Virus record (IMG/VR): IMGVR_UViG_3300025668_000051
Coordinates: 1-20,216 of that record
Length of the DNA: 20,216 bases
DNA from: a virus
Strand: one strand, 5' to 3'
The notes under the pieces are model-generated. The model was given only the letters and a program-made list of their open reading frames with translations. It had not been told where the DNA came from and searched no databases. The position numbers were made by a program, and so were the translations under genes. Shown here piece after piece: positions 1,758-12,029 of this stretch (position 1 is the stretch's first letter; each line of letters starts with the position of its first letter).

Positions 1758-2270
1758 TTATTTCTTTTTCTCTTTATCTCGTGCAAGCTTGTCTTCGAAG
1801 TCTTGTACAAAGGCGTTCATATAGTCTGCGTTTGTATTTAGATGCAGATTAATATCTTCACCACCAGCATAAGTTCCGCCAGATGCTAGCATAGACTGAG
1901 ATGATTTAAAACGAATGTACATTTGCTTTTTCTCTTTTTGAATACGGCGTAGGAACGCGTACCAAATAATTTGAGTAAAGTAAGCAAACGGATTTTGAGA
2001 TTTTTCTGGATTAAAGTTATGAATATACTGAAGACAATTTTCAATACCATCACTAATCATATCTTCTTTATATGAGTATCCACTGAAGTTAGGTTTTGTA
2101 GCAAGTCTTGTAGCAATTTGATAGATACACTTACCAATATAATCAGGTACCCTAGGTTTTATCTCTGCACCTTCGTTTTCTGCATCACGACAGGCTTCTT
2201 GGTATTTGATTAAAGCCTCAAGTAGATCCTTGTTGTTAACGTAATTACGTTTGCGTGGCTTCTTGGCCAT
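1758..2270 (-). CDS. 55: gp55-like late-transcription sigma factor
   Basis: This is an alternative sigma factor that directs host RNA polymerase to phage late promoters (TATAAATA), two of which occur in this window. Seen: 170 aa, with an N-terminal RNYVNNKDLLEAL stretch very like T4 gp55 and a region-2-like core (NFSGYSYKEDMISDGIE, IHNFNPEKSQNPFAYF, FLRRIQKEKKQ). The C-terminus is different from what I recall of T4: it ends DFEDKLARDKEKKK, with no obvious SLDFLYE-type clamp-binding tail. The start is supported by AGGAGG six bases upstream. It heads the 55-47-46 operon behind a TTGACA promoter. Confidence 0.92.
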   Translation of the reverse strand: MAKKPRKRNYVNNKDLLEALIKYQEACRDAENEGAEIKPRVPDYIGKCIYQIATRLATKPNFSGYSYKEDMISDGIENCLQYIHNFNPEKSQNPFAYFTQIIWYAFLRRIQKEKKQMYIRFKSSQSMLASGGTYAGGEDINLHLNTNADYMNAFVQDFEDKLARDKEKKK

Positions 2271-4374: not shown

Positions 4375-4403
4375 ATTCTATCACAAACTATGAGCTATGT
4401 CAA
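4375..4403 (-). promoter_or_regulatory. sigma70-type promoter for uvsY-uvsW
   Basis: Minus strand TTGACA at 4403-4398, a 17-bp spacer, TAGAAT at 4380-4375, in the GTTGACATA context. It lies in the short gap between the gp19-like gene and uvsY. Confidence 0.62.
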
Positions 4404-4408
4404 CTACT

Positions 4409-4888
4409 TTATTCTATGTCAAAGTAATCGTATCTAAATGTAGCAGTAGCTTCAGGGTATTGAATGTCGGTGCCACGAACATCTAAACTGATTGAGGATA
4501 AACCAATTGGAAAGCAATCCTTAAACACCACTTTTTTATTAGCATTTTTATGACTATTATTTAGAATAACCGTGATGTCTGAAACAGTACCAGCTTGAGA
4601 TGCTGCAACAGCTTGGTATTGTTCTGTATTTTCTGGGAAACCAATACCTTTCATCCAATTATATATTTCTAAATAATTGTTCATGTTTTCATCTAAAATA
4701 AAACCCAAGTCAAATTCACCATATGTTAATCTATCTGGAGTATCAAATACTGCACCGATAGGAGTATTCCTTTGAACTGGCTGACTAAACACCGCAGGTA
4801 GTAAAAATCTCTGAGTAAAAAACTCAGTGTTTGGTAGCCTTTGAATGACTACCTCAAACGATAAGGGAGAAAAATAATTTGTTTGCAT
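4409..4888 (-). CDS. gp19-like tail tube / virion structural protein
   Basis: This is probably a tail-tube-type protein, assembling in the contractile tail. Seen: 159 aa from this start (165 from an upstream ATG at 4906), close to T4 gp19 (163). It is beta-rich, with the family pattern PLSFEVVIQRLP near the N-terminus, a central YLEIYNWMKGIG helix, and a C-terminal beta section ending TATFRYDYFDIE. The ATG at 4888 is preferred because AGGA lies six bases upstream, whereas the ATG at 4906 has no ribosome-binding site and overlaps a plus-strand -35 box. Upstream is a minus-strand TATAAATA late promoter, as expected for a structural gene. It may be a paralogue rather than the main tube protein. 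Confidence 0.72.
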   Translation of the reverse strand: MQTNYFSPLSFEVVIQRLPNTEFFTQRFLLPAVFSQPVQRNTPIGAVFDTPDRLTYGEFDLGFILDENMNNYLEIYNWMKGIGFPENTEQYQAVAASQAGTVSDITVILNNSHKNANKKVVFKDCFPIGLSSISLDVRGTDIQYPEATATFRYDYFDIE

Positions 4889-4899
4889 GATATTTCCTG

Positions 4900-4928
4900 T
4901 TGACATATGCTAGAAGCTTTGATAGTAT
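4900..4928 (+). promoter_or_regulatory. sigma70-type promoter upstream of the FkbM operon
   Basis: Plus strand TTGACA (4900-4905), a 17-bp spacer and TAGTAT (4923-4928), in the GTTGACATA context. It is followed within two bases by a late-promoter box, so the downstream operon may be expressed both early and late. Confidence 0.58.
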
Positions 4929-4937
4929 TTATAAATA
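4926..4937. promoter_or_regulatory. palindromic, bidirectional T4-type late promoter
   Basis: The 12-bp palindrome TATTTATAAATA contains TATAAATA on the plus strand (4930-4937) and again on the minus strand (4933-4926). This octamer is the T4 late-promoter -10 element read by gp55-polymerase. One copy faces the gp19-like gene, the other the small ORF and FkbM gene. Confidence 0.65.
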
Positions 4938-4965
4938 ATTCACCAACTATAAAAGGTACAAACGA

Positions 4966-5040
4966 ATGCAGGAAGATTATCGAACTAAAATGTTCGACGA
5001 CCCTTGCGATGATTGCACACACTGGATAGGACATATGTAA
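4966..5040 (+). CDS. 24-aa small ORF with CxxC, coupled to FkbM gene
   Basis: A short ORF starts at ATG 4966, ten bases after AAAGG, and its TAA overlaps the next ATG (TAATG at 5038-5042). The peptide is MQEDYRTKMFDDPCDDCTHW followed by IGHM. It is acidic with a CDDC pair and two histidines, so metal binding is conceivable. It sits directly downstream of tandem early-type and late promoters. It may be a leader peptide, a genuine miniprotein, or chance. Confidence 0.4.
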   Translation: MQEDYRTKMFDDPCDDCTHWIGHM

Positions 5041-5759
5041 TGATAGAAATTGAACAAAGAAAAAATATGAAAGCTTTGAATGTTGAAATGGATACAGGAA
5101 GCTTATGTATGAAAAACGTCTTATTCATGTATAATGAATTTTTCAAAAGCATGGATTATGATTGGTGGTACAAGGTACAGCCTGGTGATGTATGTGTGGA
5201 TGTAGGCGCCTGTGTAGGAATGTTTACAGCCCATGCGTTAGATCTTGGAGCTTCTAAAGTGTATATGATTGAACCTAACAAAGAACTGATGCAAACAGCG
5301 CTTAAAAACTGCTATGATTATATAGTAGACCAAACAGAACAAAGAATTGTCCCAATTGGCCACGCCATAGGGTCAGACTCTAGCCATACCGAACGAGTGT
5401 TTTACACAGATGATTTTAAGACTACAAGTTTTAAAGACTTCCTCGCGCGATATAATATAGAGCACATAGACTACCTTAAACTTGATTGTGAAGGTGGAGA
5501 ATATGACGTGTTGTCAGAAGAAAATTTTGACTTTATTAGAAAAAACGTAAAACACGTTTCTTTAGAAGTTCATCTCAGAGCTACTGACGATGGCATAGAT
5601 AAATTTATTAATTTTAGAAATAAATTTTTAACACCTTACATCAATGAAAACAGAGTAAGATTCCAAGACACTTCTATTAGCAATATGGTTTTAAACGATT
5701 CAGAACTAAGAAATCCAAATAGACCACGCGAGTTTATGATGTATTTAATTAACGGTTGA
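5040..5759 (+). CDS. FkbM-family SAM-dependent methyltransferase
   Basis: A putative O-methyltransferase, probably acting on a sugar or other small acceptor. Seen: 239 aa with a Rossmann SAM site VCVDVGACVGMFTAH (51-65), the acidic ribose-binding IEPN at 77-80, and the FkbM signature YLKLDCEGGEYDVL with LEVHL further on. ATG 5040 is chosen over an upstream TTG at 5013 because TAGGA lies eight bases before it and it overlaps the previous TAA. The TGA stop lies inside the -35 box of the promoter for gene 39. It is separated from the other sugar-modifying genes at 12.5-17.8 kb. Substrate unknown. Confidence 0.8.
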   Translation: MIEIEQRKNMKALNVEMDTGSLCMKNVLFMYNEFFKSMDYDWWYKVQPGDVCVDVGACVGMFTAHALDLGASKVYMIEPNKELMQTALKNCYDYIVDQTEQRIVPIGHAIGSDSSHTERVFYTDDFKTTSFKDFLARYNIEHIDYLKLDCEGGEYDVLSEENFDFIRKNVKHVSLEVHLRATDDGIDKFINFRNKFLTPYINENRVRFQDTSISNMVLNDSELRNPNRPREFMMYLING

Positions 5760-5784
5760 CATTATCGTTCAACTGTGTTAGATT
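5756..5784 (+). promoter_or_regulatory. sigma70-type promoter for topoisomerase gene 39
   Basis: TTGACA (5756-5761), a 17-bp spacer, TAGATT (5779-5784), preceded by AACGG. The stop codon of the FkbM gene (TGA, 5757-5759) is inside the -35 hexamer. Confidence 0.68.
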
Positions 5785-5815
5785 AGAACTATACTGATTC
5801 TTGAGGAGGACTTCT

Positions 5816-7636
5816 TTGTCTGAAGATTTTAAAATTTTAACTGCACGTCAACACGTTAGAGAACGGATTGGCATGTACTTAGGCTCGAGCGCTCGTGAAC
5901 CAATTGAGCGTTTTGTTATGGGTAAATGGGCTATGGTTGAGTCCGTACCAGCGCTATCTAAAATGATTGACGAGATCTTAGATAATGCGATTGACGAGGC
6001 TATTCGTACTAATTTTAAATATGCTAATAAAATTGATGTATCTGTAAAGATGGACAATTCTATTATCATTACAGACAACGGCCGTGGCATTCCTCAAGAG
6101 TTAGTATACGACGAGACCACAAATACTAAAATTGCTCGTGCTACTGCTGCTTGGACTAGAGTAAATGCTGGTACTTCATTTGATGATAATCGAGTTACTA
6201 TTGGTACAAACGGTGTAGGATCCGCAGCTACAAACTTTCTTTCATCTAAGTTTACAGGTAAAACCTGGTCTAATGGAAAAATGTTAACTGTATCGTGTAA
6301 AAACGGTGCTGAAAAAATTAATGAAAAATATTCAGATAAAGTTGGAAATGGTACAGAAGTTACATTTGTACCAGACTTTGATTTGTTTGAATGTAATAGC
6401 CTAAACGATTACGATACTATTTCTTTAGTCGAAGATCGTTTGATTAGTCTTCAAATGGCGTTTCCAGAAATTGCTTTCTCATTTAACAAGCGCCGCATTA
6501 AAGTAAACAATCTTAAAAAATATTCTGAATTGTTTGGCGAAGAAGCTATCGTCGAAAAAACAGATAACCTATCATTCTTTATTACTACGTCTGAAGATGG
6601 GTTTCGTACCAACTCATATGTTAATGGTGTAAATACTCGCCAAGGTGGATCTTATGTTGATTTCATTATGAATTCAATTGTAGATGAGCTTGTCGTTATG
6701 ATTAAGCGTAAGCATAAGATTGAAGTCGTTAAGTCGACGATTAAAAACGGCCTTACCTTTGTTATGTTTGCTCGTAATTTTATCAATCCAAAGTTTGACT
6801 CTCAAACAAAAGAACGCCTGACAAATCCTATGGGTAACGTCAAAGAACATGCTATTGAAGCAGGTATCCATGATGCTGATTGGTTTGCTCGTAAAATTAT
6901 TAATACACCTTCTATTATTGATCCAATTATCGAGGCTCAGTTAGCAAAGAAAATTGCTGCAGACAAACGTGCCGCTACACTTGCTCAAAAGAAATTGCGT
7001 AAAGTTAAAGTAGCAAAACATATCTCTGCTAACAAAGATGATGCTACATTGAAAATTGTCGAAGGTGACTCGGCTATGGGTTTCCTATTAAAGGTACGTG
7101 ATCCTAATAAGGTTGGTGCATTTCCTCTTCGTGGTGTAATCATGAATACCTGGGATATGAAACCAGCTGATGTACTTAAGAACAAGGAATTGTCTGAGCT
7201 CGTAGCAATTCTTGGATTGGATATTAATAATCCAAACTCTGTTGACGACATGACATATCAAAGTGTTGCTACTTTAACTGATGCTGACCACGATGGTATT
7301 GGTCACATTAGTCCATTGCTCATTGCTTTCTTCTATAAGTTCTGGCCAAGGCTTTTAACAGAAAAACGTGTTAAAATTACTCGTACACCGATCATGATTT
7401 CAACGAGAGGTAAAGATGTCAAGTGGTTCTATACCTACGAGGACGCGAATGCACACAAGAGTGAATCTGGTTGGAAGCATAGATATATTAAAGGATTAGG
7501 ATCCTTACAAGAAGATGAATATGATAAAATTATCAATCAACCAAAGTATGACACAGTCACAGTCGACGATGCTGGAATATTTCAAATGATGTTTGGAAAA
7601 GATTCTTCTTTACGTAAACAATATATGTTTGCATAG
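5816..7636 (+). CDS. 39: T4-type DNA topoisomerase II large subunit (gp39+gp60 fused)
   Basis: This is the ATPase and metal-binding subunit of the phage type II topoisomerase, acting with gp52 in replication. Seen: 606 aa in one uninterrupted frame, with GHKL ATPase motifs EILDNAIDEA (53-62), DNGRGIP (87-93) and GTNGVGSAATN (130-140), the QTKERL lysine loop, then the TOPRIM motifs VEGDSAMG and DADHDGIGH. In T4 the TOPRIM part is split off as gp60; here it is fused. The start is a TTG at 5816: AGGAGG at 5804-5809 is six bases away, whereas the longer reading from 5801 would include the ribosome-binding site itself. Confidence 0.95.
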   Translation: MSEDFKILTARQHVRERIGMYLGSSAREPIERFVMGKWAMVESVPALSKMIDEILDNAIDEAIRTNFKYANKIDVSVKMDNSIIITDNGRGIPQELVYDETTNTKIARATAAWTRVNAGTSFDDNRVTIGTNGVGSAATNFLSSKFTGKTWSNGKMLTVSCKNGAEKINEKYSDKVGNGTEVTFVPDFDLFECNSLNDYDTISLVEDRLISLQMAFPEIAFSFNKRRIKVNNLKKYSELFGEEAIVEKTDNLSFFITTSEDGFRTNSYVNGVNTRQGGSYVDFIMNSIVDELVVMIKRKHKIEVVKSTIKNGLTFVMFARNFINPKFDSQTKERLTNPMGNVKEHAIEAGIHDADWFARKIINTPSIIDPIIEAQLAKKIAADKRAATLAQKKLRKVKVAKHISANKDDATLKIVEGDSAMGFLLKVRDPNKVGAFPLRGVIMNTWDMKPADVLKNKELSELVAILGLDINNPNSVDDMTYQSVATLTDADHDGIGHISPLLIAFFYKFWPRLLTEKRVKITRTPIMISTRGKDVKWFYTYEDANAHKSESGWKHRYIKGLGSLQEDEYDKIINQPKYDTVTVDDAGIFQMMFGKDSSLRKQYMFA

Positions 7637-7639
7637 GGG

Positions 7640-7668
7640 TTGACATTAGATAAAAAATGTGTTAGTAT
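7640..7668 (+). promoter_or_regulatory. sigma70-type promoter for gene 52
   Basis: TTGACA (7640-7645), a 17-bp spacer, TAGTAT (7663-7668), in the gap between 39 and 52. The GTGTTAG run ahead of and into the -10 box is shared with the gene 39 promoter. Confidence 0.68.
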
Positions 7669-9049: not shown

Positions 9050-9423
9050 AAATACACAGTCGAAACCTAGATCCTGCACTTACTAAAAAGTTTGTAGAGT
9101 TTTGTGTAAAAGAACTCGATATAACTCCAACTATGATTGTCGTCGAGGCTGAAAATGAACTTGAAGGTAATGGACTATGTGTTGATATAAATCCAGGCCA
9201 ATATCTAATTTTAGTTAATTGTAGGAATAGAAACTTAACAGAAATATACACTACCGTGGCTCATGAATTGGTTCACGTAAAACAATATATGCTGGATAAT
9301 TTGGGTTTCCTTCTTGATAGCTCAGAGTTTGAATATGATAAAACTTGGTGGGAAGCTGAAGCTCGTAATCGTTCTCAAGAATTAATTTTAAAATTTGTTA
9401 AAAATTATGAATTTAACGGTTGA
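9046..9423 (+). CDS. small zinc-metallopeptidase-like protein (HExxH)
   Basis: The function is not known. Seen: 125 aa with a gluzincin-like motif HELVHVKQ (H73, E74, H77) and a downstream WWEAEARNRS in which E103 is a plausible third zinc ligand. This resembles SprT/M48-type minimal metallopeptidases but matches none precisely. It overlaps gene 52 by ATGA, implying co-translation with the topoisomerase. Its TGA is inside the following TTGACA box. It may be a protease acting on host or phage proteins; conserved motif residues argue against decay. Confidence 0.7.
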   Translation: MKIHSRNLDPALTKKFVEFCVKELDITPTMIVVEAENELEGNGLCVDINPGQYLILVNCRNRNLTEIYTTVAHELVHVKQYMLDNLGFLLDSSEFEYDKTWWEAEARNRSQELILKFVKNYEFNG

Positions 9424-9448
9424 CATTCTAATAGAATCAGTATATATT
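9420..9448 (+). promoter_or_regulatory. sigma70-type promoter for the small-gene operon
   Basis: TTGACA (9420-9425), a 17-bp spacer, TATATT (9443-9448), preceded by AACGG as at 5751 and 11996. It overlaps the stop codon of the upstream metallopeptidase-like gene. Confidence 0.66.
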
Positions 9449-11843: not shown

Positions 11844-12004
11844 TGTTTACTTTGTTTATAGCAAGCGTTATTGTAGGCAGTTCTGAATTAAAATGGACTG
11901 CCTATGATACGTATGAAACACATATTTCTTGTCTTGTGTCAGGCGTCATACTAGAAACAGACTTTGAAGAAAAAGAAGTATGGATCTGTGCAAAAAACGG
12001 TTGA
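11843..12004 (+). CDS. 53-aa small protein, YDTY family copy A
   Basis: A short gene coupled by TAATG to its upstream neighbour. Seen: a hydrophobic N-terminus (MFTLFIASVIVG, signal or membrane anchor), then ELKWTAYDTYETHISC and a C-terminal VWICAKNG. The order M-TL, hydrophobic, K, YDTY, C, IC is shared with the ORF at 12249, so the two are paralogues. Two cysteines could form a disulfide outside the cytoplasm. Its TGA lies in the -35 box of the next promoter. Confidence 0.68.
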   Translation: MFTLFIASVIVGSSELKWTAYDTYETHISCLVSGVILETDFEEKEVWICAKNG

Positions 12005-12029
12005 CATTTGCTTCAAACTGGTATAGATT
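12001..12029 (+). promoter_or_regulatory. sigma70-type promoter for the 12.06-12.5 kb genes
   Basis: TTGACA (12001-12006), a 17-bp spacer, TAGATT (12024-12029), preceded by AACGG. The upstream gene stops inside the -35 box. Confidence 0.68.

Follow-up and report, generated by a model that had tools for sequence, protein, structure and literature searches.

An early-type promoter nested with opposed late octamers between divergent genes of a T4-like phage: a likely bidirectional gp55 late promoter

Gene layout of the divergent junction

Can a short gap between two divergent phage genes hold a late promoter that is read in both directions together with an early promoter that overlaps it? This question was raised by a 20,216-base IMG/VR record, a fragment of a T4-like phage known from its sequence alone, which was analysed over its whole length and is referred to here as the window. 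The leftward genes in the window are gp3, uvsY, uvsW, gp55, 47 and 46, and the rightward genes include an FkbM methyltransferase gene and gp39. The gap between the two sets is 77 bp long and is bounded by the start of gp3 (4888) and by a small ORF (4966). A sequence-only reading of this gap had proposed that one site serves a gp19-like gene on the minus strand and an FkbM operon on the plus strand.

The minus-strand gene matched the tail-tube family phrog_45, and its clade profile matched the structure of the T4 gp3 tube terminator (9mkb, E 6.7e-8), with no gp19 entries in the clade-profile search. Cyanophage homologs are annotated as gp3 or tail completion protein and adjoin uvsY. The proposed identity as gp19 was ruled out by the 9mkb match and the absence of gp19 entries, and the gene was assigned to the gp3 tail-tube terminators. 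The -35 box of the early-type promoter had also been thought to overlap a possible start codon of this gene. We found that the homologs start where ATG 4888 stands, and this codon has its own Shine-Dalgarno sequence. The ATG at 4906 belongs to the -35 box read in reverse; it was rejected as a start codon on the basis of the homologs, and in relatives, L030 among them, the upstream ATGTCAA does not share the reading frame of the gene. As judged from the homologs, gp3 probably starts at ATG 4888, so the -35 box would be free of start-codon overlap.

On the plus side, the FkbM gene was present as proposed, but the first gene of the unit is a predicted, previously unannotated 24-aa CxxC microprotein, and the usual plus-side partner, which diverges from gp3 in the relatives, is gp39. 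Searches of the microprotein against PHROGs and Pfam gave no match. Its DDPCDDC motif occurs at the same place in many relatives, even in those without FkbM; the conserved motif reads [FW]DDPCDDCTHWIG, and the microprotein is kept beside gp39 in many relatives. In the window and in L083/L206, the FkbM gene separates the microprotein from gp39; in most relatives it is missing at this place. FkbM-type genes were also observed to adjoin gp3 in both orientations, which suggests a hot spot.

Table 1. Features of the window at and around the gp3 junction
Feature	Position	Strand	Details
Palindrome TATTTATAAATA, common -10 region of two opposed predicted late promoters	4926..4937	.	direct read; equals its own reverse complement; kept in relatives and at T4 26/51
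Late octamer TATAAATA toward microprotein/FkbM/gp39	4930..4937	+	predicted start 4943; counterpart in 14/18 junctions
Late octamer TATAAATA toward gp3	4926..4933	-	predicted start 4920; present in 18/18 junctions
Early-type promoter TTGACA-N17-TAGTAT	4900..4928	+	TTGACA 4900-4905, 17 nt, TAGTAT 4923-4928; predicted start ~4935; in 17/18 junctions
Second early-type promoter TTGACA-N17-TAGATT	5756..5784	+	directly before gp39
TTGACA-N16/17-TANNNT promoters	1369-1397, 2294-2322, 4375-4403	-	
TTGACA-N16/17-TANNNT promoters	2357-2384, 5756-5784, 7640-7668, 9420-9448, 12001-12029	+	
gp3-like tail-tube terminator	4409..4888	-	start ATG 4888 (probable); Shine-Dalgarno AGGAA 4894-4898; phrog_45; T4 gp3 structure 9mkb; synteny with uvsY-uvsW-55
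gp55 late sigma factor	1758..2270	-	phrog_234, E 7e-60
24-aa CxxC microprotein MQEDYRTKMFDDPCDDCTHWIGHM	4966..5040	+	predicted ORF; Shine-Dalgarno AAAAGG 4951-4956; TAATG overlap with FkbM
FkbM-type methyltransferase	5040..5759	+	PF05050, E 6e-16
gp39-like DNA topoisomerase II large subunit	5801..7636	+	phrog_543, E 2e-212

Late octamers and early-type promoters in the window

Direct reading confirmed the earlier observation that TATTTATAAATA, a perfect 12-bp palindrome, carries the late octamer TATAAATA on both strands with 4 bp in common. On both strands the octamer, the first T of which is variable, lies a short way upstream of a gene, and gp55 is encoded by the same phage (Table 1); gp33 and gp45 lie outside the window. 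Since the late octamer occupies positions -13 to -6 relative to the start (PMC1524935), the predicted late starts are those given in the table; the starts near 4919 and 4944 that had been proposed were close and were corrected by one base each. The predicted late leaders are ~32 nt (gp3) and ~23 nt (microprotein). The Melnitz gp3 gene also has its own TATAAATA, at 129242.

The complete early-type promoter described in the sequence-only reading was indeed found beside the palindrome, and its TAGTAT -10 box overlaps both the palindrome and the gp3-directed octamer by 3 bp (4926-4928). TTGACA-N17-TANNNT occurred nine times in the window, against 0.49 expected, and none of 500 shuffles reached nine; the class is beyond doubt real and not a product of chance. 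Several of these sites have TTGACATT and a TAG-type -10 in common. Many strong TTGACA-N16/17-TANNNT promoters sit just 5' of genes, and the set probably represents the early promoters of the phage.

The octamer showed no enrichment in the window, with three occurrences of TATAAATA against 3.3 expected and six of NATAAATA against 12 expected, and the case therefore rests on comparison. The 12-bp palindrome arose in 12 of 500 dinucleotide shuffles of the window.

Comparison across gp3 junctions

All IMG/VR contigs were scanned at the DNA level for TTGACA-N17-TANNATTTATAAATA, using no protein information. The scan revealed 42 matches, 37 of which lay directly upstream of a gp3 homolog (within 200 nt); these homologs were mostly 46-61% identical to the gp3 of the window, and the 37 matches are not independent events, because L002, L028, L051 and L059 are near-identical to the window here. 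The non-redundant palindrome set comprised 16 members. Away from gp3 lay five matches: L058, from a gp55-bearing phage, at a different divergent junction; L029, between divergent genes in a record without a gp55 match; and L041, L048 and L050, which lack the full palindrome. With the exception of L058, these were taken as background.

Loci were also gathered by gp3 or gp55 homology, with no selection for the palindrome, and the tally was made on 18 non-redundant junctions in which gp39 diverges from gp3. The gp3-directed octamer was present in all 18. The gp39-directed octamer was present in 14 (shuffle mean 1.0, maximum 5) and the palindrome in seven (shuffle mean 0.013), and an early promoter faced gp39 in 17, the eighteenth (L081) having the weaker TGTACA. 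No gp39-directed octamer was recognisable in L088, L171, L175 and L192, so late transcription of the gp39 side is not obligatory. The start offsets of the opposed octamers varied (4, 7, 14-15, 22 and 28-31), and both octamers persisted. In the co-directional gp3 junctions (n=8, 2 non-redundant), no octamer facing away was found. Where FkbM alone was adjacent in divergent junctions, two octamers pointed at each other in 8/16.

On the gp3 tree, the palindrome requires 4 changes, where shuffling gives a mean of 20.7. The palindrome loci thus cluster, which means few independent events at the gp3/gp39 pair; as read from this tree, the palindrome at the gp3 junction is old and has been inherited mostly vertically. 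Column conservation was not used as evidence, since for the palindrome it is circular when taken over palindrome-bearing loci. A looser IMG/VR scan is in line with a set of several spacings to which the palindrome belongs: among the 80 matches listed, at least six adjoin gp3, at least one of them with the palindrome.

The palindrome at other gene pairs, including T4

The suggested search for other palindromes at divergent genes found them in relatives, at the gp3/gp39 pair, at T4 26/51 and at second sites within the clade. A search of ten cultured T4-like genomes revealed a single occurrence, in T4 itself (NC_000866 116450-116461; L227). The palindrome was absent from the other nine (RB49, Syn9, S-PM2, HTVC008M, KVP40, P-SSM2, DLP6, Sf-FR1 and Melnitz) and is thus not universal. 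The sole TATTTATAAATA of T4 lies exactly between the divergent late genes 26 and 51, both of which are baseplate genes. The exact 12-mer was present at 26/51 in all seven Tevenvirinae sampled (T4, Moon, mobillu, IME523, CBH8, KPN6 and pEC-M719-6WT.2), the flanks drifting to 2 invariant columns of 16, and in six of the seven the palindrome was the only late octamer of the gap. In our view, the T4 26/51 palindrome probably acts as a bidirectional late promoter that has gone unremarked.

A second palindrome, also between divergent gene starts, was present in larger contigs of the window's clade, and a gp55-bearing contig of 202 kb carries two, both at divergent pairs. In L349, L350, L351, L353 and L354 (clade contigs and the 202-kb contig), palindromes were observed between other divergent small genes. 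In L349/L350 the palindrome has as one neighbour a short protein rich in Cys (CIGCGRTKEQISEW), which resembles a protein next to the gp3 junction of L195/L198 (CIGCKRTQREISEW).

Likely bidirectional late use and alternative explanations

An early promoter combined with opposed octamers is a conserved module at divergent junctions, and this conservation makes bidirectional late use very likely. It also upholds the idea of a single site for both genes, with gp3 rather than gp19 on the minus side. From conservation, we infer that both octamers initiate transcription and that RNA is made in both directions, with the start sites and timing set out here. For the window, we regard it as likely that a gp55 late promoter working in both directions is nested with an early promoter, the latter serving the gp39 side.

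Three other explanations were weighed against this one. The gp3-directed octamer could be the sole late promoter, with the gp39 side served by the early promoter alone and the AATA that follows the octamer being an A+T-rich coincidence. The four junctions without a gp39-directed octamer and gp39's own early promoter in the window fit this explanation, which we nevertheless judge improbable: the gp39-directed octamer occurs at changing positions in 14/18 junctions, against 1.0 by chance, 37/42 composite matches stand at the gp3 junction, co-directional junctions have no octamer facing away, and the T4 26/51 palindrome is conserved in 7/7. Less probable still is an operator role, in which a dimeric DNA-binding protein would sit on the palindrome and repress the early promoter or gp3, the likeness to the octamer being secondary. 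Perfect dyad symmetry beside an early -10 box would suit such an operator, but in relatives the half sites stand 7-31 bp apart, each an intact octamer, which a dimer operator would not tolerate, and T4 26/51 keeps the palindrome without an early promoter. The variable spacing of two persisting octamers fits two promoters and not an operator of fixed geometry.

Homologs of gp39 are early or middle genes in T4, so late expression of gp39 is not obviously needed. Both octamers might then work while the late RNA of the plus strand is antisense, leader or noise that does not serve expression of the downstream genes. We hold this to be very unlikely, since the start of a conserved microprotein with its own Shine-Dalgarno sequence follows 23 nt after the predicted plus start, and both sides of T4 26/51 are baseplate genes.

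Proposed mechanism

Under the preferred reading, a bidirectional late promoter nested with an early one, the 77 bp between the gp3 start and the microprotein-FkbM-gp39 unit would hold three nested promoters. Early in infection, the host sigma-70 polymerase would use TTGACA-N17-TAGTAT to transcribe the plus side, the usual cargo of which in relatives is the gp39 topoisomerase. Late in infection, the gp55 polymerase with its clamp would read the palindrome toward the late structural gene gp3 and also in the plus direction, keeping the gp39 side on. In the window gp39 is preceded by an early promoter of its own, so the plus transcript may chiefly carry the microprotein and FkbM.

Because the boxes overlap, one polymerase at a time would occupy the palindrome, and competition between the two directions is plausible. 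At E. coli bidirectional promoters, strong activation of one direction is needed before competition is seen (PMC12825309), so it would be possible under clamp activation. In many relatives 14-31 bp part the two octamers, and exclusivity is therefore not the conserved trait; we argue that bidirectional late transcription would be the selected feature and the overlap its most compact form.

T4 late activation is given its polarity by the way the gp45 sliding clamp is oriented, with a nicked strand or a primer-template junction downstream (PMC2988020), and clamp orientation should hence direct a symmetric promoter. We raise only tentatively, as a somewhat doubtful possibility, that the palindrome is a direction-addressable late promoter: whether it fires toward gp3 or gp39 would be set by the direction in which the replication machinery passes, and it would thereby report fork polarity. 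Promoter sequence drops out as a variable when a late promoter is symmetric, so T4 26/51 would be a clean substrate for the question of whether the direction of transcription depends on clamp orientation alone.

Relation to known promoter systems

The junction resembles T4-type late promoters (TATAAATA, gp55/gp33/gp45) in having the octamer on both strands, 5' of a structural gene, with gp55 in the same fragment; it differs in that its opposed octamers have 4 bp in common and are overlapped by an early promoter. The T4 26/51 junction has the identical 12-bp palindrome between divergent gene starts, but it serves baseplate genes, has no early promoter and has its start codons ~50 bp apart. A literature search for a palindromic or divergent T4 late promoter found no description; earlier T4 literature, the 2003 genome review among it, was outside its reach, and prior notice is possible.

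Bidirectional promoters of E. coli (PMC12825309, PMC10268837) likewise have a common symmetrical -10 region at which steric exclusion is expected, and their common start spacings are 18, 10 and 23 (PMC12825309); the predicted late starts of the window are 23 bp apart, one of these three. The E. coli promoters are sigma-70 promoters, whereas the symmetry in the window lies in the gp55 octamer: here the opposed -10 elements overlap in a perfect 12-bp palindrome with divergent genes on both sides in conserved association, and the sigma-70-type -10, TAGTAT, is one-way. Sigma-70 bidirectional promoters being already known, the same principle would hold here for the clamp-activated gp55 late system, and at several gene pairs, one of them in T4 itself.

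In RB49 and S-PM2, both of which lack MotA, overlapping early and late promoters have been proposed to replace MotA middle control (PMC2984593). Tandem early and late promoters similarly precede gp39, the homolog of which is middle-type in T4, at the gp3 junction (early in 17/18 and late in 14/18 junctions, facing gp39); the junction differs in that its late element is also common to a divergent late gene. The composite would show that ~80 bp can suffice to place a divergent pair under early, middle-like and late control.

Divergent pairs with late octamers that point at each other were also observed, in Melnitz (62711-62762) and upstream of gp3 in L007, L012 and L098. These resemble the window in providing two late octamers for a divergent pair across a short gap (Melnitz 62721/62762; L007-type gp3 junctions) and differ in that the octamers face each other 25-34 bp apart with no overlap. 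The predicted transcripts of such pairs would overlap at their 5' ends.
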